In this document: piece after piece, positions 1 to 12,191 of the stretch | Position numbering within the stretch: the stretch's first letter is position 1 | Layout: each line of letters opens with the position of its first letter | Origin: a virus | DNA: 20,080 bases | Virus record (IMG/VR): IMGVR_UViG_3300002488_000040 | Span: 10,313-30,392 of that record | Direction: 5' to 3' (one strand) | Translations under genes and position numbers: made by a program | The notes under the pieces: generated by a model | Told to the model about the DNA's origin: nothing | Seen by the model: the letters and a program-made list of their open reading frames with translations, nothing else | Databases searched by the model: none

Positions 1-249
1 CACGAAAAACTCGTTGCCGTCAAAAAGCAGATTAAACAGCTCGATGTCGAGAGGCGCGAGATGGAGAATCTGATGAGGGCAAAGATTGGCGACGATAGTG
101 GTATTGCGGGTGTAGCCACTTGGAAGCAGAGCAAGCCGAGAAAGGTGTTCGACAAGGACTCCTTCCGTGAAAAACACCCCAAGCTTTACGACAAGTTCGT
201 CGTCGAGAAACCAGGTAATCGCATCTTGCGAGTAAAAGAGGCAACATGA
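1..249 (+). CDS. YqaJ/lambda-type exonuclease, C-terminal fragment
   Basis: The reading frame is open from base 1 and ends at TGA 247-249, so only the last 82 residues are present. The visible part has a charged helix, then MENLMRAKIGD, a TWK-like segment (ATWKQSKPRKVFD), an HPKLYDKF segment and a final RILRV strand. This order matches the C-terminal end of YqaJ-type viral recombinases (PD-(D/E)XK 5'-3' exonucleases that resect double-stranded DNA ends). The catalytic D/E/K residues lie upstream, outside the window, so activity cannot be judged. Its stop overlaps the RecT start (ATGA, 246-249), which implies translational coupling. An exonuclease next to RecT is the classic two-component phage annealing system, and this context raises confidence. 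Confidence 0.75.
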   Translation, partial: HEKLVAVKKQIKQLDVERREMENLMRAKIGDDSGIAGVATWKQSKPRKVFDKDSFREKHPKLYDKFVVEKPGNRILRVKEAT

Positions 250-1130
250 CTACAGCATTGACTACCAGAGACAAACTTGTACATCTCAACGATTTCTTGG
301 AAAAGAAGAAAAGCAGCCTCGTGAGTGTGGCGCCAAACGGTGCAGATGTGGACCGAATCATCCGCACCGCAATGTTTGAGGCATCGAAGAACGAGCGTTT
401 GGTTCAGTGCAGTCCGACGTCAGTGTACATGGCACTGGCCAAGGCCTGTGAACTGGACCTCGTTGCGGGTGGAGCACTTCATCGCGCTTCCTTGGTTCCT
501 ATGTGGAACAAGTCGAAGAAGACTTATGACGCTGAGCTGTGGATTGAGTACACGGGACTGATGGAGCTCGTTCTCCGTTCTGGTGATGTGTCTCACTTTA
601 CAGCTGAAATCGTTTACGAGAAGGACGAGTTTGAGTGCTCGTTCGATCTAGATGGCGGTAAGAAGTTGCACCACAAGCAGTTCTTCGATGGTGACCCAGG
701 TCCACTACGACTTGCATATGCCGTGGCTCATTTCAATAACGGCGGTCACCAAGTAGAAGTCATGCGTCGTGATCAAATCAACAAGATTCGAAAGTCTTCT
801 CGTAATCCCGATTCCGGTCCATGGGCCCAGCATACTGAAGAGATGTGGCGCAAGACTGTTGTACGTCGCATCTGCAAGTACCTTCCGCTTTCACCAAAAA
901 CAAAGGCAGTGGTTGCTCACGACATCAATAGTGACTTCAACGAGCCAAACATTATTGATGCCTCATTTCAATCCGATGTTACCGAAACGGACAACACGAA
1001 AGAAGCAGAAAATGTTATTGAAGTTCAAGAAGCCAAGCCTAAGCGTAAGAGGAAGACGAAAGTGAAGGATTTGGTTGAACGAGCTCAGGCAAATGACTTG
1101 CCAGAGCCAGAAGAAGATTTCACCTCATAA
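246..1130 (+). CDS. recT: RecT-family single-strand annealing protein
   Basis: This 294-residue protein should bind the single strands made by the exonuclease and anneal them to complementary DNA, giving homology-directed recombination during phage replication. Family hallmarks are visible: a helical N-terminus, SVYMALAKACELDL (about residues 59-72) followed by LVPMW (83-87), the strand segment YDAELWIEYTGLMEL, and the conserved block MRRDQINKIRKSS...GPW...EEMWRKTVVRRICKYLPLSP (about 173-217). Length is near the usual RecT size (about 270-300). The last ~35 residues are a basic stretch (KPKRKRKTKVK) followed by an acidic end (EPEEDFTS), a tail probably outside the core fold. The start is ATG 246, overlapping the exonuclease stop. 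A GGAG ribosome site for the next gene follows directly after its TAA. Confidence 0.93.
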   Translation: MTTALTTRDKLVHLNDFLEKKKSSLVSVAPNGADVDRIIRTAMFEASKNERLVQCSPTSVYMALAKACELDLVAGGALHRASLVPMWNKSKKTYDAELWIEYTGLMELVLRSGDVSHFTAEIVYEKDEFECSFDLDGGKKLHHKQFFDGDPGPLRLAYAVAHFNNGGHQVEVMRRDQINKIRKSSRNPDSGPWAQHTEEMWRKTVVRRICKYLPLSPKTKAVVAHDINSDFNEPNIIDASFQSDVTETDNTKEAENVIEVQEAKPKRKRKTKVKDLVERAQANDLPEPEEDFTS

Positions 1131-1142
1131 GGAGCACACATG
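1128..1142 (+). promoter_or_regulatory. translation start module TAAGGAGCACACATG
   Basis: The RecT stop codon, a GGAG ribosome binding site and the next ATG are packed into 15 bases. The arrangement is a one-base variant of the module (stop, GGAGCTCAC, ATG) found at several other gene junctions in this window on both strands. Confidence 0.7.
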
Positions 1143-1802
1143 TCGCTACTCGACGAAGCCGCAAGCAACCTTTCTCCATACAAGCTGATGATGTCTGAGA
1201 AGGCGGGCAAGGAAGTACAACGCAAGTTCATCATCCAGCCACAACGTCTGATGGACATTCTTCAAGACGAAATGACTGGCCGCGTCATTGACAAGAAGTC
1301 CAAGAAGGAGTTTGCCAAGTACCGGAGCAAGCTCAAGAGGACGGAGTGGACCCTCAAGGGCATGCTCAACTACGTCGATGAGCCACTGTACCGGGAACAG
1401 ATTGGCAAGACGATTGAAAGCATGATGAAGCACATCAAGCTTGTTCAGCCGAACGGTGAGTGGTGCATCATGGATTTCGAAGCAGCCATCCGACCCGATG
1501 ATAGGGGTGACGATTCAATCATGCTTGCAGTCAAGTTTGTCGACGCCAAGAACGAGCGTGATCTGCAGTACCAGAACGGCGTTCCCTTGGTTGACGTGAA
1601 GGTTGATGTCAGTGGTTCCAACAAGGAGCTCATCGAGGCAATCCAAGCTCAGAACGCAGTATCTAATGGTGGCGACCCCGAAATGAAGGCCCTACTGAAG
1701 CAGCTCGCTGCACTAATGATTCAGAAGGAATCTGGAGCTGTTGAAGCCAAGCCTCAGGAGCCTGCCGAAGAGATAGAAATGCCTACTGACTTCGAAGGCT
1801 AA
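1140..1802 (+). CDS. unknown protein in recombination operon, acidic C-terminus
   Basis: I do not recognise a family for this 220-residue protein. The first ~110 residues are mostly charged and helical in character (KAGKEVQRKF, DKKSKKEFAKYRSKLKRTEW). A likely alternating beta/alpha section follows (EWCIMDFEAAI, DDSIMLAVKFVDA, VPLVDVKVDVSG). A flexible end is rich in Glu/Pro and finishes EEIEMPTDFEG. There are no cysteines and no membrane segment. The acidic, phenylalanine-containing tail recalls the protein-docking tips of single-strand binding proteins, and RecT just upstream also ends acidic (EEDFTS). An OB-fold is not evident, so this is only a suggestion. It sits 9 bases behind RecT with a strong ribosome site, and its TAA overlaps the next ATG by one base, so a role beside recombination or replication is likely from context. 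Confidence 0.8.
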   Translation: MSLLDEAASNLSPYKLMMSEKAGKEVQRKFIIQPQRLMDILQDEMTGRVIDKKSKKEFAKYRSKLKRTEWTLKGMLNYVDEPLYREQIGKTIESMMKHIKLVQPNGEWCIMDFEAAIRPDDRGDDSIMLAVKFVDAKNERDLQYQNGVPLVDVKVDVSGSNKELIEAIQAQNAVSNGGDPEMKALLKQLAALMIQKESGAVEAKPQEPAEEIEMPTDFEG

Positions 1803-1987
1803 TGCCCCTGTACGTGTTCAAATGCGAGGACTGCGATGTCAGAGTCGAAGTCCTCCAAGCATTTGGTGATCCTAAGCCCAGCTGCGAAAAGTGCTCTAAG
1901 GACATGAAGAAACAAATCGCACTGACCAGCTTCGTCCTGAAGGGCGGCGGCTGGGCCAAGGATGGATACGGTTCGACCGATGGCTGA
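1802..1987 (+). CDS. FmdB-type zinc-ribbon protein
   Basis: This 61-residue protein begins MPLYVFKCEDC and carries two CxxC pairs (C8/C11 and C28/C31), followed by an FVLKGGGW segment. That layout, a short MPxYxFxC start, a zinc ribbon, then a strand ending in a G-G/S-G-W signature, is typical of the FmdB/CxxC_CxxC_SSSS zinc-ribbon family (named as putative regulators; biochemical role unclear). The pairs should bind one zinc ion. Its ATG overlaps the upstream TAA (TAATG), and it overlaps the next gene by 8 or 26 bases depending on that gene's start, so it is translated as part of the same operon. In phages such ribbons may act on transcription or as assembly adaptors; this one could serve the DUF2589 genes that follow, which is inference from position only. 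Confidence 0.85.
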   Translation: MPLYVFKCEDCDVRVEVLQAFGDPKPSCEKCSKDMKKQIALTSFVLKGGGWAKDGYGSTDG

Positions 1988-2474
1988 TCATTCTCTCGAC
2001 GACATCGTCCACTCCATTCAGTCCGCTGTTATAGCGGCGACCGACATCGCGGAACGGCATGAACTGGATTCGATTACGAACCAGGAGTTCTGGGAGCTCA
2101 AGGTTGATGAGAATGGAGATCCGATTACCGATGACGACGGAAGACACATATATGCACCTCGCATGGTCGTCATGGAGATCCCAACATGGGAAAATGGAGT
2201 ACTGGTACAAAAAAGAATTCCGGTCCCCCTCCAGTCCCTCACTACTGGCCAGAGCCTACGGGTGGATACGCTCGAGGTTGAGATGTCAGTGGAGATCTCT
2301 GGTCTCACTGCGGACAAGAAAAAAGGTCAGCTGATGGTACGACCCTGCGCCACCAAGCCGTCGTGGTTCAAAAAGGAGAGCAATGCTGCTAAACTGAAGT
2401 TGGTTTTCAAGGGCAGCGAACCACCTGAAGGTTATGCAAGAATCGACGACCAGCTCATCAAACTGCTTCCGTAG
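1980..2474 (+). CDS. short DUF2589-like protein
   Basis: The frame can start at ATG 1962 or ATG 1980. I prefer 1980 (164 residues, starting MADHSLDDIV) because the later DUF2589 gene also starts MAD followed by a similar helix; the 1962 start has AAGG placed only one base ahead, too close for a good ribosome site. An N-terminal helix (SLDDIVHSIQSAVIAATDIAE) is followed by a strand region with RIPVPLQSLTTGQSLRVDTLEVEMSVEI. This aligns with VDLQVPLLAIINTPALSVKEAEVRFTMEV in the 3099-3707 protein. Both proteins also end with a strand and an acidic linker into PPEG plus a final helix. This supports distant membership of DUF2589 (PF11655), a family without an established function. The long loop of the larger protein, between the strand block and the end, is mostly missing here. 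Family assignment needs a profile search. Confidence 0.75.
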   Translation: MADHSLDDIVHSIQSAVIAATDIAERHELDSITNQEFWELKVDENGDPITDDDGRHIYAPRMVVMEIPTWENGVLVQKRIPVPLQSLTTGQSLRVDTLEVEMSVEISGLTADKKKGQLMVRPCATKPSWFKKESNAAKLKLVFKGSEPPEGYARIDDQLIKLLP

Positions 2475-2483
2475 GAGATCATC

Positions 2484-3089
2484 ATGGCAGATGGGAATGA
2501 TTCTAAAAGTTTAGATGCCGACTACCTTGCGGCATTGCGAGATACAGACTTTTACAAAGACGCTTTTCAGCGAGCCTACCAAGAGCCTGAGTCAGCCATG
2601 ACGGAACTGTATCGATATACAGGCAAGTTTGGACCTTACAGTTCTCGCTTGAATATAGCAATACCGCAATCATCGGAAGCACCAAACGAACAAAACTATA
2701 GTAAAGCTGCCCAGCAGTTGCGTCAGGCTATTAGCGCATCTCCACCTGAAATAAACGACCCAAGACGTGTTCCTAAGGACGCAACTGGTCTAAGAGGTTC
2801 GCGGCCTGGGGACGCGGCAAGAACGCACGCAGTTTTTTCACTCGCCTTGACTGAAGCCTTAGAATCACATGAACAACAAGGCAAGAGGTTCGATAAAGCT
2901 TTTATGCTCAGAGAAACTCGAGAGGGGGCACCTAAATCTACGAGGTCTATGGGAAAAACAGTCGAACCCATGGAGCGTTTTCCCACAAGAGCGTATGGTA
3001 TTATTCCGGGGCTTGGACGAGACAGTCCAATTCCAATCGAAGACAAAACAGCTGACCAAACACTCATGGAAAACATGAGGAAAAAATAG
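2484..3089 (+). CDS. unknown protein between two DUF2589-type genes
   Basis: This 201-residue soluble protein is not one I recognise. It starts MADGNDSKSLDADYLAALRD at an ATG with AGGAG seven bases ahead, overlapping the previous TAG stop. An N-terminal helical part (residues 10-40) is followed by a region rich in Ser, Pro and Asn (GPYSSRLNIAIPQSS, SASPPEINDPRRVPKD). Then comes a helix (ARTHAVFSLALTEALESHEQQG), and finally a basic, probably unfolded end (GAPKSTRSMGKTVEPMERFPTRAYG). There are no cysteines, no membrane segment and no visible catalytic motif. Codon use looks slightly more A/T-rich than the flanking genes. Its only context clue is its place inside the DUF2589 cassette, with tight junctions on both sides, which suggests a partner of those proteins. 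Confidence 0.78.
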   Translation: MADGNDSKSLDADYLAALRDTDFYKDAFQRAYQEPESAMTELYRYTGKFGPYSSRLNIAIPQSSEAPNEQNYSKAAQQLRQAISASPPEINDPRRVPKDATGLRGSRPGDAARTHAVFSLALTEALESHEQQGKRFDKAFMLRETREGAPKSTRSMGKTVEPMERFPTRAYGIIPGLGRDSPIPIEDKTADQTLMENMRKK

Positions 3090-3101
3090 GAGCTCACCAT
3101 G
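3087..3101 (+). promoter_or_regulatory. translation start module TAGGAGCTCACCATG
   Basis: Stop codon, AGGAG ribosome site, CTCACC spacer and ATG of the DUF2589 gene in 15 bases. It is almost identical to the junctions at 8000-8014 and 11739-11753 on the other strand, so the motif is shared by the two transcription units. Confidence 0.7.
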
Positions 3102-3707
3102 GCAGATTCCGGCCTCGTACAAATGTCATCGCAGTTCGGTGGCCTTCCAATGGAGCAACTCATTGGTGGTCCCCTCAAGGCTGCGTGTAACGCTCAGACC
3201 CTGCTCGCTAAGGCATCCAGCGACTTCATCAAGGACGTTGGTCTCAACGACGATGGCAAGGGCAACCTGTCAGCTCGTACCGTCGACTTCGGCTTCAACA
3301 AGCCAGTCCAAGATGCTGCTGGCAACACGAAGATGGAGAAGGTGGACCTCCAGGTACCCCTGCTCGCCATCATCAACACCCCAGCTCTCTCAGTAAAGGA
3401 AGCCGAGGTCCGGTTCACGATGGAGGTCAAGTCCTCCACCTCGAGCAAGACCACCTCCGACAGCAAGGCTGACCTTACAGCCAAGGCCAAGTACAACGCT
3501 GGTCTGTTCTCTTGCGAGGTCACTGTGCATGGCTCTGTGGCTAACCACAGCGAGAACAGCCGTAGCAGCGACAACAGTGCCAAGTATGACGTCAAGGTCG
3601 TCGCCCGTGATGACGGGCCACCAGAAGGCCTCATGAAGGTGCTTGACATGCTGAACGACGCCATCGCTCCTACTCAGGGCGTGGCTGCAGCTCCAGCTGG
3701 CAAGTAA
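3099..3707 (+). CDS. DUF2589 family protein
   Basis: This 202-residue protein carries the features I associate with DUF2589 (PF11655). An N-terminal helix, LPMEQLIGGPLKAACNAQTLLAKASSDFIKDVGL (read as residues about 15-50), is followed by a TVDFGF strand and the core VDLQVPLLAIINTP-SLxVxEAEVRFTMEV. A Ser/Thr/Lys-rich variable section follows (SSTSSKTTSDSKAD), then YDVKVVARDDGPPEGLMKVLDMLNDAI near the end. Function is not established for the family; in bacteria these genes often occur as neighbours of further copies, and here a shorter relative lies two genes upstream. It is probably a soluble beta-sandwich-like protein with an amphipathic N-terminal helix. It is the last gene of the + operon and a large hairpin follows seven bases after its stop. 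Family call is fairly confident; role is unknown. Confidence 0.85.
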   Translation: MADSGLVQMSSQFGGLPMEQLIGGPLKAACNAQTLLAKASSDFIKDVGLNDDGKGNLSARTVDFGFNKPVQDAAGNTKMEKVDLQVPLLAIINTPALSVKEAEVRFTMEVKSSTSSKTTSDSKADLTAKAKYNAGLFSCEVTVHGSVANHSENSRSSDNSAKYDVKVVARDDGPPEGLMKVLDMLNDAIAPTQGVAAAPAGK

Positions 3708-3713
3708 CGTCCC

Positions 3714-3792
3714 CCTGACCCCCCCACCCACATCGTCTGTTCCCATCTCGGGACGTGAGCATGGGCGATTCCTACCGGGTGGGGGGGTCAGG
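3714..3792 (+). terminator. large GC-rich hairpin ending the + operon
   Basis: Perfect 16-base arms (3714-3729 CCTGACCCCCCCACCC and 3777-3792, its reverse complement) enclose 47 bases that fold further. ATCG 3732-3735 pairs with CGAT 3766-3769, CCCAT 3742-3746 with ATGGG 3761-3765, and CTC 3747-3749 with GAG 3757-3759, leaving a seven-base loop. The + strand side is followed by CATTTTATT, so it can act as an intrinsic terminator for the operon that ends at 3707. It is much longer than a normal terminator stem, so an additional RNA role (3' end protection, structured small RNA) is possible. Confidence 0.7.
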
Positions 3793-3844
3793 CCATTTTA
3801 TTCAGGCTTTAATACACACAAGGGTGGTGGTAAAGATTTGGTTT

Positions 3845-3885
3845 CATCAGATAGGCTGATGTCACCAATTAATCCCGTGGATTAA
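3845..3885. repeat. two short inverted repeats in the switch region
   Basis: CATCAG 3845-3850 pairs with CTGATG 3856-3861 across a five-base loop. TTAATCC 3869-3875 pairs with GGATTAA 3879-3885 across CGT. The second is a 17-base near-palindrome of the size of a dimeric repressor operator. They could be operators for the gene at 3934 or small hairpins in its leader RNA. I see no convincing -35/-10 pair between 3795 and 3930, so no promoter is called. Confidence 0.5.
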
Positions 3886-3891
3886 ACCTGG

Positions 3892-3921
3892 CCCCACTTG
3901 AGTGTCACGACTCAAGTGGGG
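3892..3921 (+). terminator. 12-bp hairpin with T-rich tail, just ahead of a small gene
   Basis: CCCCACTTGAGT (3892-3903) and ACTCAAGTGGGG (3910-3921) form a perfect 12-base-pair stem with loop GTCACG, followed on the + strand by TATTCTTT. This has the form of an intrinsic terminator, yet it lies only 12 bases before ATG 3934. It may be an attenuator or leader hairpin for that gene, a backup stop for + operon read-through, or a stop for leftward transcripts coming from the late operon (the - strand tail GGCCAGGTTTAAT is weaker). Confidence 0.6.
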
Positions 3922-3933
3922 TATTCTTTGGCC

Positions 3934-4227
3934 ATGGCACGATGTGGACGATGCGGATTCTTCAAGTCCTACGAGGGTGCTAGCAAACAGGCAGGCGTCT
4001 GTTTAATGTTCCGGGGTCTCCAGCTGCCTGAAGACGCTCTGTGGGAGCATCGGAAGTGCCCTGAGTACACTCAGAAGATTCCTGATTGGACTCCTGAGCA
4101 GCACTTCGACTTCGAAGTAAAGCGACATGATGTTCAGCGCAGTTGGCGTGCCAGTAAACGAGCTCTGTTCTTTTCTTGTTCCGCATTGGTCGTTTCAATC
4201 CTGACGCTACTGAGTGGGCTGATCTAG
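3934..4227 (+). CDS. small cysteine-rich protein with C-terminal membrane helix
   Basis: This 97-residue product is read from ATG 3934; a longer TTG-start version from 3898 would run through the hairpin arm and is unlikely. The N-terminus MARCGRCGFF has C4 and C7, with C23 and C42 further on (GVCLMF, HRKCPEY), a likely zinc-binding set. A charged middle follows. Residues about 77-96 (ALFFSCSALVVSILTLLSGL) form one hydrophobic helix at the very end, so the protein is probably tail-anchored with the cysteine part in the cytoplasm. There is no strong ribosome site: only AGTGGGG in the hairpin arm, 13 bases ahead. It stands alone on the + strand between the two operons, and its TAG shares the CTAG at 4224-4227 with the converging gene. 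Family not recognised. Confidence 0.65.
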   Translation: MARCGRCGFFKSYEGASKQAGVCLMFRGLQLPEDALWEHRKCPEYTQKIPDWTPEQHFDFEVKRHDVQRSWRASKRALFFSCSALVVSILTLLSGLI

Positions 4228-4727
4228 GTCTTCTCAACGATCTCGAACAGCTCGTCGACACGTTTCTTCATGCGCTTCATCTGACGCTCGACATCGTCTC
4301 CGTCAAAGTCAGCAGAAATGGTAGAAGTCTTCTTCTCAATGCCTGCAAGCTTCGACTTGAGACCGTCGATTTCTGCCTGCATGGCCGCAGACTTGACCGC
4401 ACAAGGGGGAGGCTGCTCGCCCTCAAGACCTTGGTTCTGGGACTCAATCTCCAGCTTCTTCATCTCCCGCTCGTGCTTCTGCTCAGCCCAGTCACGGTAC
4501 AGCTTGAACGCCTTTGAGCCACCAGCTACGGCCATGCCAGCCAAGGCAACGGCCACTACGGGTGCATGCTCACCACCAATCGCTTGAGCTGCATCAGCCG
4601 CTGCCGTGATGTCTGAGGCTACACCGAGCGTTTCTGAAAGCTCTGGGGGTTCTGGTCCCACGTCCAAGTTGGCGATGTCGACAGGCTGAGGAGTTGTGAC
4701 TGGTGCAGGCGTTTCTGTTGATGGCAT
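4224..4727 (-). CDS. small membrane protein with C-terminal coiled coil
   Basis: This 167-residue protein is the last gene of the leftward operon. Residues 1-50 are Pro/Thr/Glu/Ala-rich and probably unfolded (ETPAPVTTPQPVD). Residues about 54-72 (APVVAVALAGMAVAGGSKA) form a small-residue-rich hydrophobic helix. The rest is charged helix (DWAEQKHEREMKKLEIESQ; AAMQAEIDGLKSKLAGIEKK; VERQMKRMKKRVDELFEIVEK) with heptad character, interrupted by a QPPPCAVK link. I recognise no family. Its place after the endolysin-like and holin-like genes suggests a membrane-anchored accessory of the lysis module, or a virion component. The start is ATG 4727 with GGAA nine bases upstream; the stop overlaps that of the + strand gene. 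Confidence 0.75.
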   Translation of the reverse strand: MPSTETPAPVTTPQPVDIANLDVGPEPPELSETLGVASDITAAADAAQAIGGEHAPVVAVALAGMAVAGGSKAFKLYRDWAEQKHEREMKKLEIESQNQGLEGEQPPPCAVKSAAMQAEIDGLKSKLAGIEKKTSTISADFDGDDVERQMKRMKKRVDELFEIVEKT

Positions 4728-4739
4728 GACTGTGGTTCC

Positions 4740-5048
4740 TTACTTGTCGCGATCTAAAATGCGGTCCAACTTAGACACGATCTCGTTGTGTACTTTTGTG
4801 CGCGTAATCAAGAAGTCTTTGGACTGACTGTCGTTATTGTGCCGGTACTCTTGAATTACACGGTCATATCTTTCACGCATGGCTTCAGATCGGTCGCCAT
4901 ACTCTTTACGAATCTCGTCGATCTGCTCTTGGAATCCCTCTACGAGTTTGTCCAGGCGTTTCTGCATCGTCATGAACTGGTAGACCAAGAACGCTGCGAA
5001 GATACCGAGGTGACCATCGGCCAACAAGGAATCAACCAAGGCTTCCAT
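4740..5048 (-). CDS. UviB/BhlA-like holin candidate
   Basis: This 102-residue protein has an N-terminal hydrophobic helix (about residues 12-28, HLGIFAAFLVYQFMTMQ) followed directly by a basic/charged helix (KRLDKLVEGFQEQIDEIRKEYGDR...) that continues as coiled coil to the C-terminus. A single N-terminal membrane helix with G-x-F-A-A-x-L-V-Y and a charged helical body is the layout of the UviB/BhlA group of small holin-like proteins. Members I recall are usually shorter (about 70-90 residues), so the extended coiled coil is an addition. The ATG overlaps the TGA of the transpeptidase-like gene (TGATG), fitting a coupled enzyme-holin pair. It could alternatively be an i-spanin-like protein; no experimental family member is being claimed. 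Confidence 0.7.
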   Translation of the reverse strand: MEALVDSLLADGHLGIFAAFLVYQFMTMQKRLDKLVEGFQEQIDEIRKEYGDRSEAMRERYDRVIQEYRHNNDSQSKDFLITRTKVHNEIVSKLDRILDRDK

Positions 5049-5635
5049 CAGACCACTCGTTTGGCTTCTTCAGGCACCAAGGTGTAGCTGAATGAGTTGC
5101 CCCACTTGTCTCGAGCCTTGTAGCAGATGTCCATGAACTCAGCGAAGTCATCTGCGTTCGCGAAGACTTGGCATCCAGCTGACCATCGGTCTACTTGCGT
5201 CGAGTGTGACCCGGCTTTGTGAATGTTGATGCCATAGTAGCCTTCAGTAATAGACTCCACATCACAATCAATGATGTCGTCTTTATTGCTGTCACGATAA
5301 GTCTTGACCTTACCGTTCCTCTGGCAGAGCGCGTCATACTTCCCTTGGTGCTTGTCGATCTTCCACACACCTCGATACTGACCCGGAACCAAAATGGCTG
5401 TGCCATTCACGTTGGTGGGGTTCTCCAACCAGTAGTTACCAGGCTCAGTTGTGCAGGCCCATGACTTGTGTACCCACACATCGTCTTCGTCCTTGAAGAC
5501 GCAGTGAATGACATCGTCAAAGCTGTTGGCCGTGTGGTCTGTGGACCGCACGCCGATGATGTTGACGTTGTAGGCCCCAGACTCAAAGACCTTGTAGCCG
5601 AGGGACTCAGCGTAATCGAGAATCTCAGGCCGCAT
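5048..5635 (-). CDS. L,D-transpeptidase-like (YkuD-related) endolysin candidate
   Basis: The frame is open from 5779, but ATG 5635 (195 residues, MRPEILDYAESLGYKVF) is the likely start. It lies one base after the TGA of the upstream gene, whereas the longer version would overlap that gene for 143 bases and adds a low-quality Arg-rich stretch. The core ends YYGINIHKAG...VDRWSAGCQVF, with H139 and S152-x-G154-C155. This pattern of His, then S-x-G-C, is the catalytic signature of YkuD-type L,D-transpeptidases and related phage cell-wall enzymes that act on peptidoglycan peptides through a cysteine nucleophile. There is no signal peptide, so it would need a holin or virion delivery, and holin-like genes sit on either side. 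Cutting rather than cross-linking is inferred from context. Confidence 0.75.
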   Translation of the reverse strand: MRPEILDYAESLGYKVFESGAYNVNIIGVRSTDHTANSFDDVIHCVFKDEDDVWVHKSWACTTEPGNYWLENPTNVNGTAILVPGQYRGVWKIDKHQGKYDALCQRNGKVKTYRDSNKDDIIDCDVESITEGYYGINIHKAGSHSTQVDRWSAGCQVFANADDFAEFMDICYKARDKWGNSFSYTLVPEEAKRVV

Positions 5636-5636
5636 A

Positions 5637-5948
5637 TCAGTTACCGCTGCTACAGTTGGCGTTTGTGGCTTGGCAGATCTGTGCGATATTGACTGCCTGA
5701 TGTTGCTGATTCTCAAGCATCTTAGAAACAATGTCTTCCATCTTATCCAGACGCTTCTCAACACCCTCAATCTTGACATCGACTACCTCTTGATGGGTAA
5801 GAGTGGTCGCCTTCTTGCTCTCAAGAACGGTGACTCGCTTATCGAGGTCCTCTACATCTTGAGCCGCAGACTCAAGTGAAGCGAACGATACACCCGCTGC
5901 GAAGATGACGGTGAGTACAGGGACTGCAATATCTTTGATTTCCACCAC
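5637..5948 (-). CDS. small membrane-anchored coiled-coil protein
   Basis: The product is 102-103 residues with an N-terminal hydrophobic helix (about residues 6-25, DIAVPVLTVIFAAGVSFASL) followed by a long predicted coiled coil (DVEDLDKRVTVLESKK; VEKRLDKMEDIVSKMLENQQ) and a C-terminus with two cysteines (ICQATNANC). It starts at GTG 5948 or, better spaced from the AGGAG at 5952-5956, at GTG 5945. Family not recognised. A short N-terminal anchor and periplasmic coiled coil is the general form of an inner-membrane spanin, and it directly precedes the endolysin-like gene, so a spanin or holin-regulator role is plausible. There is no nested lipoprotein gene visible as an outer-membrane partner. 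Confidence 0.72.
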   Translation of the reverse strand: MVEIKDIAVPVLTVIFAAGVSFASLESAAQDVEDLDKRVTVLESKKATTLTHQEVVDVKIEGVEKRLDKMEDIVSKMLENQQHQAVNIAQICQATNANCSSGN

Positions 5949-5956
5949 ATACTCCT

Positions 5957-6349
5957 CTACGGTTTGACGTTCTCAGGACAACTATATGACCCAATAAGTT
6001 GGTCGGTCAACTTAGACGGCTCGCATCGTTGCTTATCTGTTTCACCTGTTCGAATACAGAGCGCCCACATGCATTGCAGAGACATGGGATCCCCCCCAAC
6101 CTCTTTGATGCATGGGGGAGGCAATTCCGTCAACTTGTTGGCAATCGCACTTTCGCGCTGAGCTTCTTCAACTGCAACTTGTTGTACCTTGGCCACCAGC
6201 TCTTGATTACCACTGTTGAGCTCAGCAATGGCCTCAGTTTGCGCCTCAATCGCTTCTGCACCGGCATCAGGCTTCAGACCCCACCCAGCACCGAAACCGA
6301 CGCTCAGGGACGCTACAACAGCAATAACGGTCAGTGTGACGGGTTCCAT
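5957..6349 (-). CDS. Rz/i-spanin-like membrane protein with conserved cysteines
   Basis: The frame has ATGs at 6358 and 6349. The GAGG site lies 9-10 bases before 6349 but directly abuts 6358, so 6349 (130 residues, MEPVTLTVIAVVASL) is the better start. An N-terminal hydrophobic helix (about residues 5-24) is followed by an Ala/Glu/Gln-rich coiled coil (AEAIEAQTEAIAELNSGNQELVAKVQQVAVEEAQRE as read in pieces), then a cysteine-containing end: LPPPC, LQCMWALCIRTGETDKQRCE, SYSCPENV. A membrane anchor, periplasmic coiled coil and cysteines near the C-terminus are compatible with an i-spanin. The PPC...C.W..C.R.GETD.QRC pattern looks family-specific, but I cannot name the family with certainty. Confidence 0.7.
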   Translation of the reverse strand: MEPVTLTVIAVVASLSVGFGAGWGLKPDAGAEAIEAQTEAIAELNSGNQELVAKVQQVAVEEAQRESAIANKLTELPPPCIKEVGGDPMSLQCMWALCIRTGETDKQRCEPSKLTDQLIGSYSCPENVKP

Positions 6350-6368
6350 GTTCAACATTCCTCACTCG

Positions 6369-6767
6369 CTATGCACAAAGTATTTTGACGATGACTGCAG
6401 ACGTTGCATTCGCCGATGTTCCAGCTGCAGCACCTGTGGTCACCCAGTACGACAATCCAGTCGACAAGGCCAAGCCTGCAGGAAACGAGTAGCACATCTT
6501 AGTAAACGCCGGAGCAATGAAGCTGTGGTCGGGTGTCCCAGCTCCGTTCGCAGTAGACACCGATGGCTGAAAGTCGGTGTTGTCCCGAATCTTCAGGTAC
6601 ACCGTGGATGAGTTGGCCTCATTGTCGATTTCAATCAAGTAGATTGTCCCACTGCCCGTGAGTGCGTTTTTCTGATCTGCAATGTCATTGTCATGACCCT
6701 TTGCATTTCGGTTGAGAACGTACTTGCCACCGAGCTCGGTCAATGCAGATGTTGTTACGGAAGCCAT
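6369..6767 (-). CDS. small beta-rich virion-type protein, copy B'
   Basis: This 132-residue Ala/Thr/Ser-rich protein (MASVTTSALTELGGKYVLNRN...) is probably all beta. It has GSGTIYLIEIDNEANSSTVYLKIRD, then AFTKMCYSFPAGLALSTGLSYWVTTG, and ends SANATSAVIVKILCA. The order G-x-IYxI...N...YLK, PAG, GLxY, final strand is shared with the genes at 6767, 7619 and 8012, and the end is closest to the 7619-8002 protein (GLRYFGTST... TTAANALVAKFLFI). Such small beta-sandwich proteins encoded next to fibre genes are usually capsid decoration or tail-tip components, but I cannot assign it to a family. Its ATG overlaps the stop of the previous gene (TGATG), giving coupled translation with copy A'. Confidence 0.75.
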   Translation of the reverse strand: MASVTTSALTELGGKYVLNRNAKGHDNDIADQKNALTGSGTIYLIEIDNEANSSTVYLKIRDNTDFQPSVSTANGAGTPDHSFIAPAFTKMCYSFPAGLALSTGLSYWVTTGAAAGTSANATSAVIVKILCA

Positions 6768-7123
6768 CAGCCCACCAAGAACCTGACATTGACACCAGCT
6801 GCAGGAGCGGTGTTGTCTTGGGGATTAGAGTTCGCAGTCACAGCAAAACTCAAGTACGTGTATGGAAGTCCATCCGGAATCTCAATCATCGTCGTCGAGG
6901 TAGCAGGGATTTTGAAAACCATGTCTGCCACCGTGGTAGACATGGTCACAGACTCTGCGTCAAACAGCTTTAGCGACGCTGCGTTGTTGCTGTTGACGAA
7001 GTGGATAGCGTAGATGGAGCCAGGACCAGAGGTTGTGTTGACAATTGCAGTCTCATCGCACGCCGTCTCTTGGACAATCTCGTACTTGAATGCGTCTTCA
7101 AACTTGGTCTTGGACAGTGCCAT
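6767..7123 (-). CDS. small beta-rich virion-type protein, copy A'
   Basis: This 118-residue protein starts MALSKTKFEDAFKYEIVQETA and continues with GSIYAIHFVNSNNAASLKLFD, VADMVFKIPA, IEIPDGLPYTYLSFAVTANSN and a final VNVRFLVG. It aligns clearly with the 8012-8389 protein (MALSSAQFDNTVLTYKIIKQT; GKLYEISLVNNSSSNAYFKA; HIPAGLSFTKLSFWAVTN). It is therefore a paralogue, probably a beta-sandwich virion protein. It follows the unknown 7127-7390 gene by three bases and is coupled to copy B' through TGATG. No signal peptide or membrane segment is present. Exact role is unknown; head decoration or tail-tip are the simplest options given the fibre genes upstream. Confidence 0.75.
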   Translation of the reverse strand: MALSKTKFEDAFKYEIVQETACDETAIVNTTSGPGSIYAIHFVNSNNAASLKLFDAESVTMSTTVADMVFKIPATSTTMIEIPDGLPYTYLSFAVTANSNPQDNTAPAAGVNVRFLVG

Positions 7124-7126
7124 CTA

Positions 7127-7390
7127 CTATTCCATGCCCTTCACTTTTACAGATGAATCATCTACATCGATGGGCTGAACTGGGTTGGGGCGAGCCTTGG
7201 GCTTCACCTTTGGTCCGGCAGGAATATCGACGGACATTGAGTCCTTAGGCTTCTTGGCCTTGATGTCGATGGTCCCGAACCTAAGCACCACAGCCTTTTG
7301 AGCTGAAGTCAGGTTCTTGCCCTCTCCCGCGTTGATTTCATCCAACTTTCGTGCGTCTTCTTCAGACATATCTTCAGTCATACCGAACAT
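7127..7390 (-). CDS. unknown small hydrophilic protein
   Basis: This 87-residue protein is without cysteine, membrane segment or recognised family. The N-terminal half (MFGMTEDMSEEDARKLDEINAG, then LTSAQKAVVLRFG) is likely helical. The second half is a Lys/Pro-rich, probably extended tail (KAKKPKDSMSVDIPAGPKVKPKARPNPVQPIDVDD). It is translated from a TAAGGAGCTCATTATG junction and is followed after three bases by copy A'. It may be a linker or adaptor for the neighbouring virion proteins, a guess from position alone. Confidence 0.65.
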   Translation of the reverse strand: MFGMTEDMSEEDARKLDEINAGEGKNLTSAQKAVVLRFGTIDIKAKKPKDSMSVDIPAGPKVKPKARPNPVQPIDVDDSSVKVKGME

Positions 7391-7403
7391 AATGAGCTCC
7401 TTA
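7388..7403 (-). promoter_or_regulatory. translation start module TAAGGAGCTCATTATG
   Basis: The stop of the holin-like gene, the GGAG ribosome site and the ATG of the next gene in 16 bases on the - strand. It shares GGAGCTCA with the junctions at 3087, 8000 and 11739. Confidence 0.65.
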
Positions 7404-7610
7404 CTCTGCGCTTGCAGCCACAGCCTTCTTCTCAGCTGCGTCTACGTAACCTTGACCCAGAATGTACGAGACGCACACGCCGGCAGAAAGCTTGAGTGCT
7501 TCGCCCAAACCGATGTCTTCGCTCACGAACGCAAGCACTGGGGGAAGCAGAGCTCCGATGAATGCTGCCCAGAACTTTCTCGAGGCCAGCTTGGCTTTCA
7601 ATGTTTCCAT
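7401..7610 (-). CDS. holin-like two-helix membrane protein
   Basis: This 69-residue protein has two hydrophobic helices, about residues 13-30 (KFWAAFIGALLPPVLAFV) and 40-57 (LSAGVCVSYILGQGYVDA), with a basic N-terminus (KAKLASRK) and a charged end (AAEKKAVAASAE). The S-R-K-F-W-A-A start and YILGQGYVDA segment resemble small proteins commonly annotated as phage holins. Such proteins oligomerise in the inner membrane and trigger release or activation of the cell-wall enzyme. It has a good ribosome site (TAGGAGAGATCATG). It lies about 1.8 kb upstream of the enzyme gene in the same operon, separated by the A'-B' pair, which is unusual for a simple lysis cassette. A second holin-like gene lies at 4740, so which is the real holin is open. 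Confidence 0.72.
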   Translation of the reverse strand: METLKAKLASRKFWAAFIGALLPPVLAFVSEDIGLGEALKLSAGVCVSYILGQGYVDAAEKKAVAASAE

Positions 7611-7618
7611 GATCTCTC

Positions 7619-8002
7619 CTAGATGAAAAGGAATTTGGCTACCAATGCGTTGGCAGCTGTAGTTGGCGCTTGAGTAGAGCCGTTTGCTTTTGTAGATGTC
7701 CCAAAGTAACGCAGGCCGCCAGCTAAAGCGTTTCCTTCAGAGCAGACATACTCTATTTTTTCACCGGCGGGCACCGGGAACACATAGTCTGGGTTGTTGC
7801 TATCTGGCGCCCCCGATGTACCGTCATACACCTTGATGTATGAAGTGCTTGTGGTGATAACTCCACTTGAGCCGTCACCAATCAGGTAGTACCAAGTCGT
7901 TGATCCAGAATTAGCCTGAACAGGATTTGCGTCATCGACGGCACTGTCGGTCACTATTGTGTCAGCAAGAGCTGCCGGTACTGTTCCAGTAGTTACTGCC
8001 AT
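7619..8002 (-). CDS. small beta-rich virion-type protein, copy B
   Basis: This 127-residue Ala/Thr/Gly-rich protein starts MAVTTGTVPAALADTIVTDSA. It has STTWYYLIGDGSSG, TSTSYIKVYDGTSG, YVFPVPAGEKIEYVC, GGLRYFGTSTKANG and the end TTAANALVAKFLFI. The order of strand-like segments and the C-terminal end match the 6369-6767 protein, and more loosely the A copies, so it belongs to the four-member local family. It is probably a structural protein of the particle. It begins at a TAGGGAGCTCACATG junction after copy A and is followed by the holin-like gene. Confidence 0.73.
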   Translation of the reverse strand: MAVTTGTVPAALADTIVTDSAVDDANPVQANSGSTTWYYLIGDGSSGVITTSTSYIKVYDGTSGAPDSNNPDYVFPVPAGEKIEYVCSEGNALAGGLRYFGTSTKANGSTQAPTTAANALVAKFLFI

Positions 8003-8014
8003 GTGAGCTCCCTA
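8000..8014 (-). promoter_or_regulatory. translation start module TAGGGAGCTCACATG
   Basis: The stop of copy A, the GGGAG ribosome site and the ATG of copy B in 15 bases on the - strand. It is identical to the fibre gene start at 11739-11753 except for one base in the stop codon region. Confidence 0.7.
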
Positions 8015-8389
8015 TGAGGTAACCAAAGTAGTAACTAGACCGTTACCACTGTTCAGGGTTGGAGACGTAGTGTTGTTGTCCGTTGGATTGGTCACGGCCC
8101 AAAAGCTGAGTTTGGTAAATGACAGCCCAGCAGGGATGTGCCAGCGTTTGGATTCTGCAGCATTCACACGAATCATCAGCTCGGGAATAGTGGTTCCAGG
8201 CGTCACGACATCATCATCCAGTGTGGCTTTGAAATAAGCGTTCGAAGATGAGTTGTTGACCAAAGAAATCTCATACAGCTTCCCAGACTCGGACGTCACA
8301 TCTACGTTTGCGGTAGCGTTCGTAATGGTCTGCTTGATGATTTTGTATGTGAGAACTGTGTTGTCAAACTGAGCTGAAGACAGAGCCAT
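8012..8389 (-). CDS. small beta-rich virion-type protein, copy A
   Basis: This 125-residue protein starts MALSSAQFDNTVLTYKIIKQT, with GKLYEISLVNNSSSNAYFKA, IPELMIRVNA, HIPAGLSFTKLSFWAVTN and the end GNGLVTTLVTS. It is the clear paralogue of the 6767-7123 protein: the same start, the same IP-x-GL-x-(Y/F)T-x-LSF segment and a similar length. No membrane or signal segment is visible. It is likely an all-beta structural protein of the phage particle. It is preceded by TTAAGGAAAAGTCATG, which contains an AAGGA ribosome site, and follows the 33-residue microprotein gene by 17 bases. Confidence 0.75.
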   Translation of the reverse strand: MALSSAQFDNTVLTYKIIKQTITNATANVDVTSESGKLYEISLVNNSSSNAYFKATLDDDVVTPGTTIPELMIRVNAAESKRWHIPAGLSFTKLSFWAVTNPTDNNTTSPTLNSGNGLVTTLVTS

Positions 8390-8406
8390 GACTTTTCCTT
8401 AAGTGA

Positions 8407-8508
8407 TTAGCCGCTTGCCAGCAGTACGGTTCCGAGAGCGAGCACAGCCAGTCGTCGCCAAGAGATGCGCTTCTGTGAACAAAAAAGTTGGTCGATGAAA
8501 TCCTTCAT
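8407..8508 (-). CDS. 33-residue membrane microprotein
   Basis: This short frame begins at ATG 8508, with GGGAGAAATA directly ahead, and ends at TAA 8407-8409. The product starts MKDFIDQLFCSQKRISWRR and continues with LAVLALGTVLLASG. A basic RISWRR patch is followed by one short hydrophobic helix at the very C-terminus. It fills the gap between the Asp-box protein (stop 8518) and copy A, has a good ribosome site, and lies in the direction of the operon, all of which argue for a real gene. The ending LASG* is abrupt, so it may be a shortened relative of longer phage proteins with an RISWRR-plus-helix start. Function unknown; a small holin or anti-holin-like role is possible. Confidence 0.5.
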   Translation of the reverse strand: MKDFIDQLFCSQKRISWRRLAVLALGTVLLASG

Positions 8509-8517
8509 TATTTCTCC

Positions 8518-9651
8518 CTATAGAGGCAAGTATACGTTGGGGGCGCAATCTAGCATGTCCTTGCCGCCCATGTTTTGCTCAGAAGCACTAAAGTTTACGC
8601 CGTTATCGGTGCTAAAAAACATGTCTCCAGTGAAACAAGCCACGCACCACGTTCCAGATCCGTCTGTTGATATAGCCGACAAAGTTCCGTGAGTAGTTCC
8701 ACTGATGAAGTCCACACCATTTTCAACTACGGTTATGGTTTTACCATTAATATCAATTATTGATTTAAGCTGGCCGCCTACAGCTATGACGCGACCACCA
8801 GCGGCGGCAACGCGAGTATCAAATTGGAAACATGCCCCACCATGATTACTAATAGTAGTTTCAGTTGACCAGTCAGTTAAATCTGATGCCGCCGCAGTAA
8901 AACACTCTCCACCATTGACTCCAGCAAAAAGCGTAGAGTTGGTATACGCTAAAACTCTAATATCACCAGGATCTGCATTGCTTGAATCGAGTAGTGTGTG
9001 AAGCAGGCTCCAAGATGAACCATCATTAGTACTTTGGTAAATTCTATTTTGCTGCGCGAACCACCAAGTTCCAGTACCATTAGATGCCAAAGCATAAGCA
9101 CGTTCACTGTTAATCCCACTAGCGCCACTAACATCAACGTGACTCCAGTCCTTACCATTGGTTGATCTGAAAACATCAGGTCCACCCATCTTGCCGACCG
9201 CGATCCAAACATCATTACCCCACTGAACTTGGTCTCTTCGTCCAGTTAAGCCTCCACCACCACTCAATGAATTTACACCAGTCCATGGACCCGAACTCGG
9301 GATACCTTCTTTGTATGACAACTCGCATGAGTCATCCGCATACGTACCAACCCATATTTCATCGCCATTTTCATCTTTACCGTATGCAACAGAAATATGA
9401 TCGATACTACTAGATGGGTTTGGACTGCTACCACCCTGGAATGAGTCATAGTCAGTCCAATCATTTCCTGCTTTAAGATCGGCATCGGTAATGTAGCCAA
9501 CTCTTCTGTCGTCACCTACAGCAAACCAATATGTTGCGCCTGAAGAAGGCTTAGTCGCGCCGTCACACTTTACGATACTACCAACCGCTACACCGTCAAT
9601 CTTAATAATGTCTGCTGCGGCAACACCATTATATTTAGTGTAGTCAGCCAT
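8518..9651 (-). CDS. Asp-box (BNR-like) repeat protein, likely virion adhesin
   Basis: This 377-residue protein has a short N-terminal piece with a doubled pattern (ADIIKIDGVAVGSIVKCDG, residues 13-31) and a body that reads like a sialidase-type beta-propeller. Asp-box-like motifs occur at about 162-169 (RSTNGKDW), 206-214 (QSTNDGSSW) and 346-354 (FSTDNGVNF), with W/V-rich strands such as YWFAVGDD, EIWVGTYADD, DVWIAVG, WWFAQQNRIYQ and WCVACF between them. Three clear motifs in ~340 residues suggest several blades. Catalytic sialidase residues are not evident, so binding rather than hydrolysis is likely. The ATG overlaps the TAA of the fibre gene (TAATG), suggesting the two are co-translated parts of the same host-recognition structure. 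A receptor-binding role is inference. Confidence 0.8.
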   Translation of the reverse strand: MADYTKYNGVAAADIIKIDGVAVGSIVKCDGATKPSSGATYWFAVGDDRRVGYITDADLKAGNDWTDYDSFQGGSSPNPSSSIDHISVAYGKDENGDEIWVGTYADDSCELSYKEGIPSSGPWTGVNSLSGGGGLTGRRDQVQWGNDVWIAVGKMGGPDVFRSTNGKDWSHVDVSGASGINSERAYALASNGTGTWWFAQQNRIYQSTNDGSSWSLLHTLLDSSNADPGDIRVLAYTNSTLFAGVNGGECFTAAASDLTDWSTETTISNHGGACFQFDTRVAAAGGRVIAVGGQLKSIIDINGKTITVVENGVDFISGTTHGTLSAISTDGSGTWCVACFTGDMFFSTDNGVNFSASEQNMGGKDMLDCAPNVYLPL

Positions 9652-11741
9652 TATAGCTCAACGTGGTTGTTAGATGGGTTGAAGTAAATAAGTACGTCAC
9701 CACCGTCGTCATCAAGCGCGTGACCTACGATTCTTACGAAGTCACCCCCACCGGAAGGTGCGGTAAAGTCAAGGTGTCCAGCCGTCGTGCTGACATAAAT
9801 AGGAAGCCCATCTACAGCACCAGATCCGGGAACATTTAGAATCTCGGTCGATGGGATACGAATAAAACCCTCCATCAAGCAGCCTGCGGTTCTTGCGTTC
9901 CCGAGACCAATACCAAGCATCTGCGTTGCACCAGTAGCAACAGCGTCAGCATCTGTTTGATCCCACGTCCCATCAGTATGCAAGAAGTAAAGCTGACCAA
10001 CAGTCAGGGTATCATCGGCCCCTGGGCTATAGCGAAGAACGCGACCACCGCCTTCCCCATCTGCAAGTTGGTTCTCAAAAGTAACTAAGTTGTAGTCATG
10101 AATGACATTCAGAGAAACTTTGGGCGCTGTGTCTCGAACACCAAGAGCACCTGAAACGCTTGTCTTTGATGTAGTTACGTTACCGATAATGACGTTGACT
10201 TCATCCTCAGCGCTTCCATCTTCGATTACGAGGCCGTTCTGAAACTCCCCATCGTGAGTGGCTACACCGAGCATCAGCCGGCCACCCTCGGCACCGTTTG
10301 ATGCGTCGGCTACTTCAGCCCTGACCTTCGCGAAAAGAATATTGTCTTGGTTGTCATCGTCTCCGAAGAACTCAATCTCACCACAACCATCTGCATCAGC
10401 ACCAGCAGCGCCCTTGTCTTTTACAAACCGGAGGACTGCGGCAGTAGAGTCATTGACTGTGTTCTTGATAACGACATCGCCATCGGGCTCAAGATTGATG
10501 TCTGCATTCGCGCCGTCATCGTCGGTAGTCGTGATGGTCAGGGCACCATTCGCACCAGTAGCGATTGTGCAGAAGTCTCCAGTGTCGGCTGAACTGAGCA
10601 TCTTGATGTCGGGACCACCGTCATCAATCTTCATGAACACGCCTTGGTTGAAGTCTGCGCCTGTTGCAGTCAAGTCCAAGGCTCTGGTCGTAGTGTTTCC
10701 TGGCCCACTACCAGTCGCAGTGATTTCAATGCCTTTAACCAGCGTTGTACCCGCCGCTGACGCATGTTGAAGCGTCGGAGTCAACTTGGCGCCAACCATC
10801 TCGTTTGTGCCGTTGGTGGCTGTAGTGTTGTCCATGTCGACATTGATGCCAATCATCGTATTGTCAGACGTACTTGCGCCCGTCTTGTCAAAGTCTATGT
10901 CGAGTCCGATAGTGCTAGAGGCATCGGTAACGCTGAAGTTTTGATCGAGCGTCACTCCAGTAGCAGCAGTAACGGTGCTAGTCACAACCCCGGTGTTCAC
11001 CACACCAGCGAAAGTCGAAGACAAATCGTCGCTAATCGTCAAGGCTGTAGCGAGAGAGTTCAAGCTGCTGCCGGAGGATCCAGCGTTCGCGGTCTTGAAG
11101 ACGATGTCGCCACCGGCACCGCTACCCTTACCTTGGCCACCAGAGATGGTAACCGAGCCACCAGCTTGGTTATTGCTTGTGCCCGCAGTAGGCGCTCCGC
11201 CAGAAATATTAAGCGTAGCACCTGCTGCATCATGGGCTGTAGCCCCCACAGCAAGCGTAGAGTTTGTGGCTCCGTAAGTGATGTCGCCGCCTGTGACGGT
11301 AAGGTCGGTACCAACAGTAACGGCAGCGTTAAACAGAGCCGCACCAGCTTCTGACATATCGAGAGTCAGTGCGGTAATGTCACTGGTATCGTCGGTGCCC
11401 TTGAAAATAATGTCAGCATCGCCTGCTTGGGCATCAAGGGTAATGTTGCCGCTCGATGTGGCGATAGTAACTGCGGCGTCACCCGTGCTGATGTCATCTG
11501 CGGCAGTACCACCACCACCACCGGCAATCGATGTACCAGACGTAATCTGGATGTCGTTTCCAGCATCCGTGGTGAAGTACAGTTCACACGGAGTCTGATT
11601 GTCGACCCAGAGTTGACCCTTGCCGGCTTCGTCTGCCTGAGCGTCTGCACGCTCTTGTATGAATACGGTACCCGATGCGTCTACATCAGTACCGCTAACT
11701 TTCTGACCGCGACCTGTGAATGACCCGTTGAAGGTTGGCAT
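9651..11741 (-). CDS. phage fibre-like structural protein
   Basis: This 696-residue protein is very rich in Gly, Ala, Thr, Asp and Ser, with no cysteine-rich or membrane part. The N-terminus (MPTFNGSFTGRGQKVSG...GQLWVDNQTPCELYFTTDAGNDIQI) looks like an attachment or trimerisation start. A Gly-rich linker (AGGGGG) follows, then hundreds of residues of short strand repeats such as NITLDAQAGDADIIFKGTDD, LTLDMSEAGAALF, VGTDLTVTGG and INLEPDGDVVIKN, as in elongated trimeric fibres. The last ~130 residues form a distinct domain: GQLYFLHTDGTWDQTDADA, MLGIGLGNARTAGCLMEGFIRI, GLPIYVSTTAGHL, FVRIVGHALDDDGGDVLIYFNPS. This pattern is common in phage head- or tail-fibre ends. No intramolecular chaperone domain is visible. 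It likely extends from the particle and contacts the host surface. Confidence 0.8.
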   Translation of the reverse strand: MPTFNGSFTGRGQKVSGTDVDASGTVFIQERADAQADEAGKGQLWVDNQTPCELYFTTDAGNDIQITSGTSIAGGGGGTAADDISTGDAAVTIATSSGNITLDAQAGDADIIFKGTDDTSDITALTLDMSEAGAALFNAAVTVGTDLTVTGGDITYGATNSTLAVGATAHDAAGATLNISGGAPTAGTSNNQAGGSVTISGGQGKGSGAGGDIVFKTANAGSSGSSLNSLATALTISDDLSSTFAGVVNTGVVTSTVTAATGVTLDQNFSVTDASSTIGLDIDFDKTGASTSDNTMIGINVDMDNTTATNGTNEMVGAKLTPTLQHASAAGTTLVKGIEITATGSGPGNTTTRALDLTATGADFNQGVFMKIDDGGPDIKMLSSADTGDFCTIATGANGALTITTTDDDGANADINLEPDGDVVIKNTVNDSTAAVLRFVKDKGAAGADADGCGEIEFFGDDDNQDNILFAKVRAEVADASNGAEGGRLMLGVATHDGEFQNGLVIEDGSAEDEVNVIIGNVTTSKTSVSGALGVRDTAPKVSLNVIHDYNLVTFENQLADGEGGGRVLRYSPGADDTLTVGQLYFLHTDGTWDQTDADAVATGATQMLGIGLGNARTAGCLMEGFIRIPSTEILNVPGSGAVDGLPIYVSTTAGHLDFTAPSGGGDFVRIVGHALDDDGGDVLIYFNPSNNHVEL

Positions 11742-11753
11742 GTGAGCTCCTTA
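11739..11753 (-). promoter_or_regulatory. translation start module TAAGGAGCTCACATG
   Basis: The stop of the upstream structural gene, the GGAG ribosome site and the ATG of the fibre gene within 15 bases. It is the consensus form of the junction module seen on both strands of this window. Confidence 0.7.
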
Positions 11754-12179
11754 TGTGTGGTCGTGCCAGTGCAATCGAGCCTTGGACACCTTGCATGCTT
11801 CGGAAGGCTTAATCCACACGTAGCACTTACCCGTTGCAGTCTGACCCGATGGTGCAGTCACGAACAACTTGTCGAGTGAAATGACGCAGTGAACGGTGTT
11901 TGATGAGCCACCTTCAGTGACCGATACGCTAGTCACCTTGGAGGTCAATGGGTCGTCGCCGGTCGAGTCCCAAGTCATGTAGACTTCGATTGTGCCCGTG
12001 CCTGCGTACTCAGTCAGTACGAGGTCCAGCTGAGATAACGAGCAAGCACCAGGCATCGCACGAGACCGAGCATCACTGGGTGTACCAGTCGTCTGCTCTG
12101 CAAGCAACGTGGATGTGAACGCACTTGTCGACGTGATGTTGGTCACTGCCGTGTTTGTAATGAAGCCAGCTCTTGGCAT
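11751..12179 (-). CDS. small beta-rich structural-type protein
   Basis: The frame extends to TTG 12191, but the GGAGG at 12185-12189 sits five bases before ATG 12179 and falls inside the longer version, so the product is taken as 142 residues (MPRAGFITNTAVTNITS...). It is Thr/Ser/Ala-rich, with likely strands LSQLDLVLTEY, GTIEVYMTWDS, NTVHCVISLDKLF, GKCYVWIKPSEACKVSKARLHWHDHT. The last segments carry Cys and several His. I recognise no family. An all-beta protein between a fibre and another structural gene is most likely a virion component such as a fibre-attachment or decoration protein. It follows the intrinsic terminator at 12205-12224, so it is expressed by read-through or from a nearby promoter not identified here. 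Confidence 0.7.
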   Translation of the reverse strand: MPRAGFITNTAVTNITSTSAFTSTLLAEQTTGTPSDARSRAMPGACSLSQLDLVLTEYAGTGTIEVYMTWDSTGDDPLTSKVTSVSVTEGGSSNTVHCVISLDKLFVTAPSGQTATGKCYVWIKPSEACKVSKARLHWHDHT

Positions 12180-12189: not shown

Positions 12190-12191
12190 AA

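Follow-up and report, generated by a model that had tools for sequence, protein, structure and literature searches.

We analyzed a 20,080 bp stretch of DNA from an uncultured marine phage (the window; positions 10,313 to 30,392 of the 30.4-kb IMG/VR virus record IMGVR_UViG_3300002488_000040). Its plus strand encodes two proteins of the DUF2589 family (PF11655), whose function is unknown: a short member of 164 amino acids (positions 1980–2474) and a long member of 202 amino acids (3099–3707). The two genes form a conserved pair in phages and in bacteria, where they are central to a so far undescribed module, and the recurring partner of this pair is a cell-wall hydrolase. The pair probably helps wall-dissolving enzymes to act, for example at host burst, rather than taking part in recombination. 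Our preferred interpretation, to which we assign a probability of a little under 40%, is that it is an accessory module (a lysis helper or carrier) for a cytoplasmic wall hydrolase that has no signal peptide.

Short and long DUF2589 genes form the conserved unit

Both proteins exceed the curated PF11655 cut-off of 23 bits. The short protein matches positions 2–153 of the 154-position profile (E = 1.8e-15, 58.1 bits) and the long protein positions 1–153 (E = 1.3e-43, 149.4 bits). Both also turned up when the virus record was searched in all six frames. Alignment of the short and long profiles with hhalign covered the whole length (162 columns, probability 98.2%, E = 3.5e-14) and took in both the VPLL..L.I..V...EV core and the PEG-helix end. 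These searches confirm the proposal of a first-pass annotation, made from the sequence alone, that the two are family members sharing a core and a C-terminal end. That annotation had allowed that the short protein might fail to match the family and that the arrangement might not recur; the protein does match, and the pair recurs. The open reading frames (ORFs) and their order were also as annotated, but the start of the short gene had been placed 18 nucleotides too early, at 1962. Homologs begin at the residue encoded by the ATG at 1980, which we therefore take as the start.

Many bacterial proteins share about 50% identity with the long protein. Among cultured phages we found no relative of the short protein, and for the long one only a 4-kb fecal contig. 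Neither protein matched an entry in PHROGs, PADLOC or NCBIfam, and none of eight proteins compared with the PADLOC defense models gave a match.

According to the first-pass annotation, the conserved set comprised four genes, with an FmdB-type zinc ribbon upstream and a protein between short and long that possibly serves as an adaptor. Viral contig scans yielded 139 loci close to the phage group of the window, 126 of them with both DUF2589 genes. The gap between short and long is 7–10 nucleotides in 102 of the 126. In the other 24 it is 280–1111 nucleotides and holds a single ORF; these ORFs belong to several unrelated families, and each has a ribosome site of its own. The ORF in the window (201 amino acids, 2484–3089, plus strand) is not conserved and has no family match in Pfam, PHROGs, PADLOC or NCBIfam. 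Its family occurs in 5 of the 139 viral loci, and the four-gene set is absent from bacteria. The ratio of nonsynonymous to synonymous substitution rates (dN/dS) is 0.31–0.35 for this ORF, compared with about 0.03–0.09 for the pair. Because the slot is empty or variably filled elsewhere, the family is confined to five loci and evolution is fast, we regard the ORF as optional cargo and not as an adaptor. The zinc ribbon (1802–1987, plus strand) was correctly recognized: it has the CxxC...CxxC motif, matches PF09723 (E = 1.2e-11) and TIGR02605 (52.7 bits, cut-off 31.3) and overlaps the start of the short gene by 8 nucleotides. As a fixed partner it was rejected, given that other ORFs lie between ribbon and short gene in many relatives. 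The conserved unit is the pair, not the four genes. Short and long are tightly coupled, recurrent and probably paired; an assembly of four with an adaptor is not supported.

Four of the insert ORFs (window 2484–3089; L005 6900–7991; L021 7395–7979; L094 800–1336) end in a common C-terminal tail, (Q/E)TLMENMR(K/Q)K, which L005 shares though the remainder of its ORF appears unrelated. Such a tail might be expected if the pair belonged to the virion or another particle, whether packaged or ejected, and the inserted ORFs were variable cargo, and in phage groups C and G the pair does adjoin structural or large late-type genes. We did not take up the tail as a cargo signal because it abuts a recombination junction, and it may be a remnant of recombination. 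As the window pair is part of an early-type operon and no capsid or tail genes recur at the bacterial loci, we consider this explanation highly improbable.

Bacterial pairs have a third gene and often a wall hydrolase nearby

Scanning a single genome for each species returned 310 bacterial loci, of which 80 were fetched and analyzed. They come from Pseudomonadota, Bacillota, Thermodesulfobacteriota and Bacteroidota, among others. Short and long genes are on the same strand in about 78 of the 80, usually with the short gene first (long first in seven). Six whole genomes each contain exactly one long and one short gene, and the 3 of 369 genomes of one class that carry the family have two copies each. 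Distances among long proteins are congruent with those among short proteins (Mantel r = 0.795; maximum of 999 permutations, 0.117), so the two are inherited together.

In 79 of the 80 loci the same strand also encodes a protein of about 91 amino acids (p91), with the consensus DLSDVRYVKRIVVGSDNPEKLESEEEIQAQMDLLNRCLSETPKGKIIGKEKSFAVLNIGEHQVVLQYVVYHVGFKRKPLWL. The p91 gene directly follows the long gene in 66 of 82 loci (plasmid loci counted) and lies just before the short gene in 14. No match to p91 was found in Pfam, NCBIfam or PADLOC.

A peptidoglycan-degrading enzyme is encoded within 4.5 kb of the pair, always on the same strand, in 56 of the 80 loci, and only one hydrolase hit was located farther away. 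The association is strong (Fisher p of about 2e-15), bearing in mind that related loci are not independent. Nine families are represented: glycoside hydrolase (GH) families GH19 and GH108, N-acetylmuramidase (PF11860), CHAP, Amidase_2, Pesticin lysozyme, VgrG3-C with LysM, the PG_binding_1 type and the phrog_3000 type. None of the 52 hydrolase ORFs scanned has an N-terminal hydrophobic segment, and the enzymes thus lack signal peptides. The endolysin of the window (5048–5779, minus strand; phrog_3000/phrog_33083 type) is 54% and 49% identical to enzymes encoded shortly before the pair in two Bacteroidota loci (L198 and L212, respectively). The window phage, a second phage (L288) and Flavobacteriales all have a member of this one hydrolase family next to the pair.

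The variety of the enzymes is also what brings in the main rival explanation, an antibacterial effector system. Here the hydrolases and nucleases would be toxins against competitors, DUF2589 and p91 would form a carrier or release particle, and in phages the pair would protect the infected cell or release effectors. Polymorphic cargo with Pesticin lysozyme, VgrG3-like C-terminal domains and colicin-type DNase or WHH nucleases is typical of effectors. A small exported protein, encoded in 25 loci, of which 22 also have a hydrolase, would be the immunity protein, although this role is a guess. Compared with Pesticin/colicin and type VI secretion muramidase effectors, the likeness lies in the Pesticin, colicin-DNase and VgrG3-C domains of some neighbors; unlike those systems, no secretion apparatus gene recurs near the pair, and DUF2589 is not known as an adaptor for effectors. 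No toxin cargo accompanies the pair in phages. We regard the effector carrier as possible but rather doubtful.

LuxR-type response regulators are frequent neighbors at the bacterial loci. Regulator genes and a phage-type endolysin are also found with the bacterial Type 10 secretion system, which is defined by a holin, an endolysin and spanins (PMC10847048). In contrast to that system, no holin or spanin recurs at the bacterial loci studied here, where the invariant components are DUF2589 and p91.

Two groups of bacterial loci had further genes. In Lachnospiraceae (L150, L152, L153 and relatives), a DUF4231 membrane protein, which we take to be of the SLATT type, a DUF6765 protein and phage-type integrases suggest that the DUF2589 loci are a mobile island. 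In Burkholderia stagnalis (L147, 7554–8000 and beyond), downstream of the pair lie genes for a GH24-type lysozyme and for three proteins that by eye resemble AidA/PixA inclusion-body proteins.

Phage pairs occur in many gene contexts

All 17 phage long proteins used for a quick maximum-likelihood tree fell into one clade (Shimodaira–Hasegawa-like approximate likelihood ratio test support, 99), and the phage copies occur in at least eight different gene contexts. Because a single phage clade spans this many contexts, the pair moves among phages as one unit.

Several of these contexts involve lysis genes. In L288, short, long, endolysin and holin-like genes are contiguous; the endolysin is of the same family as that in the window, and the protein after it is similar to the window's holin-like protein. 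In L230 and L285, a holin (phrog_2359) precedes short and long within structural operons, with an SU10-type portal in L230. In L235 the pair is followed by a GH24 phage lysozyme. Within the window group, an endolysin gene converges on the pair at a median distance of 1.36 kb after the long gene in 54 of 78 loci. An endolysin is thus adjacent in the window itself (convergent), in L288, in L235 and in most of the window group, as a hydrolase is at most bacterial loci.

In the window, the endolysin gene belongs to a minus-strand lysis region. The other members are a possible but weak Rz-like spanin (4740–5048; phrog_1327, E = 0.0022), with an N-terminal transmembrane segment (residues 4–22) and a coiled coil, and a holin-like small membrane protein 3.7 kb from the pair (7401–7610; phrog_9987 holin, E = 1.9e-4). 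The arrangement resembles phage lysis cassettes of holin, endolysin and spanin in having signal-less endolysins of the same families and, in L288, L230 and L285, a contiguous holin or holin-like gene. The DUF2589 proteins differ from cassette members in that hydropathy predicts no transmembrane segment in either, so neither resembles a holin (a small protein with transmembrane helices), and in that they have no PHROG match.

Several observations weigh against a role as hydrolase accessory. No recognized wall hydrolase was found at 24 of the 80 bacterial loci, two of which have a colicin-type nuclease instead, and the relatedness of the loci means that the counts overstate their independence. 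Structural or other genes occupy the endolysin position in 24 of the 78 window-group loci, and the endolysin is therefore not universal. The pair has no adjacent lysis gene in group F (L292), where it lies between an SbcD-like metallophosphoesterase and a PD-(D/E)XK nuclease; in group G (L294–L300), where it follows large LPD38-type proteins; or in group H (L278–L283), where it precedes the terminase. The window pair, moreover, shares its strand with the early-type genes, whereas the lysis genes, already including one for a holin-like protein, are on the opposite strand.

The nuclease neighbors of group F bear on an older proposal. The first-pass annotation placed the genes in a phage recombination operon; on this view, a multi-protein assembly would take part in recombination or replication together with RecT and an exonuclease. 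RecT is indeed encoded upstream (246–1130, plus strand; PF03837, E = 5.5e-35; phrog_148, E = 2.3e-61), but within the window we identified no exonuclease. RecT is present in 74 of the 100 window-group loci with sufficient upstream sequence. Across the viral loci its median identity to the RecT of the window is 31%, compared with about 90% for the pair, a contrast that is only indicative, since the loci were picked by DUF2589 similarity, which inflates it, and the synonymous divergence of the neighbors is saturated. Because the neighboring RecT is so poorly conserved, a recombination role is unlikely. Group F is the only other phage group with the pair beside nucleases, others have it in structural or lysis operons, and neither recT nor exonuclease or other recombination genes recur at the bacterial loci. 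The functional tie is thus not borne out, and an assembly with RecT and exonuclease seems to us very improbable.

No p91 was found in the phage loci searched, except in L228, which looks bacterial. As phages lack p91, the phage pair might instead be a decoy, taken without p91 and hydrolase, that poisons a self-lysis (abortive) module of the host. A single, strongly conserved phage clade with a moron-like spread over unrelated phages would agree with this, as would a DUF4231 membrane protein beside the pair in five Bacillota loci. There is no PADLOC match, however, and the rarity of the module in bacteria would provide little selection for a decoy. Several phages also have the pair inside the lysis cassette itself. 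We judge the decoy explanation unlikely.

Possible mode of action

The AlphaFold model of the short protein is of fair quality (predicted local distance difference test score, pLDDT, 79.6), with a long N-terminal helix, a beta sandwich and a C-terminal helix. A viral predicted structure, A0A516L4Y6, resembles it (E = 8.5e-8) and is probably another, functionally uncharacterized member of the family. The model of the long protein is poor (pLDDT 52), and residues 119–142 (3453–3524, plus strand) are its lowest-confidence part. This segment has a strong two-residue periodicity (beta-moment z of about 1–3, averaged over up to 58 homologs), is flanked by Ser/Thr/Lys-rich stretches and has no equivalent full hairpin in the short protein. 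The periodicity would suit an amphipathic beta hairpin, a structural suggestion drawn from sequence. Such a pattern is a point of comparison with beta pore-forming proteins. A Protein Data Bank (PDB) fold search, run with the short model only because the long one is unreliable, found no similar fold, and PDB sequence searches gave no match. Lacking a fold match and a reliable long model, an action at the membrane has no structural support, which also counts against the accessory reading.

Under the preferred interpretation, that the pair is an accessory module for a signal-less hydrolase, short and long would be two obligate subunits of one complex, assembled through their N-terminal helices. 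The complex would act with a wall hydrolase made in the cytoplasm and would most likely be placed between the folded enzyme and the membrane. The additional amphipathic hairpin of the long protein may engage or perforate the inner membrane, with the hydrolase first held back and later let through. In bacteria, p91 would be the third member and the hydrolase exchangeable; phages would keep only the two subunits and use their own endolysin. The pair could then assist the holin step of lysis or take its place. A bolder version is that short, long and p91 make up a previously undescribed machine that, independently of any holin, would carry signal-less wall hydrolases across the inner membrane, or release them through it, in bacteria of several phyla, and that a phage lineage has stripped this machine down to the two DUF2589 subunits and passed the resulting non-canonical lysis factor on to unrelated phages. 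We put this forward tentatively and with considerable doubt.

Other features of the window

The plus-strand replication/recombination operon has the order RecT, a 220-amino-acid ORF with no assigned function (1140–1802), zinc ribbon, short, the 201-amino-acid ORF and long. Directly 3′ of the long gene, a GC-rich stem-loop with a 16-bp outer stem (3714–3792, plus strand; fold of 3700–3930, z = −7.1) is the probable end of this operon. A 13-bp stem with a T-rich tail (3891–3922, plus strand) is terminator-like, and the lysis region lies beyond both structures. Downstream of these terminators, 3934–4227 (plus strand) encodes a small Cys-rich protein with a C-terminal transmembrane segment, a relative of which sits between the zinc ribbon and short in L060.

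A 2,368-amino-acid protein (12915–20021, minus strand) matched nothing in Pfam or among 50,697 phage records; this large protein is probably associated with the virion or ejected from it. Paralog-like proteins of about 120–150 amino acids are encoded at 6369–8389 and 11751–12191 (minus strand), at 4563–5403 (minus strand) of L142 (record bases 1–10400) and at the late-gene junction of window relatives. They share the pattern MAL..TGF....L.YKI..ET........GTLY.I...N......LKI and are possibly repeated virion surface proteins. Also in L142, upstream of the window, positions 663–3483 (plus strand) encode a Mom-family protein (PF25680, E = 8.4e-7), an N4/N6 DNA methylase (PF01555, E = 7.3e-14) and, by eye, possible DpdA-like, QueC-like and SSB-like proteins. 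These genes are likely a DNA hypermodification cluster.

Implications for the DUF2589 family

DUF2589 is named in one sentence on a lactate-induced region (AF0414–AF0417) of Archaeoglobus (PMC3949148). We found no other mention of it, and none of PF11655, in the open literature, a scope that excludes most subscription journals and all preprints. None of the papers within this scope describes obligate pairing of short and long members, a link to p91 or wall hydrolases, or a phage-specific clade. The results reported here provide the first testable context for this family: p91 is its constant partner, one short and one long member make up a constant stoichiometry, and the exchangeable enzymes are of one class, the wall hydrolases. 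If the pair does move or gate endolysins, it would be a new answer to the holin problem, both in phage lysis and in bacterial lytic release.

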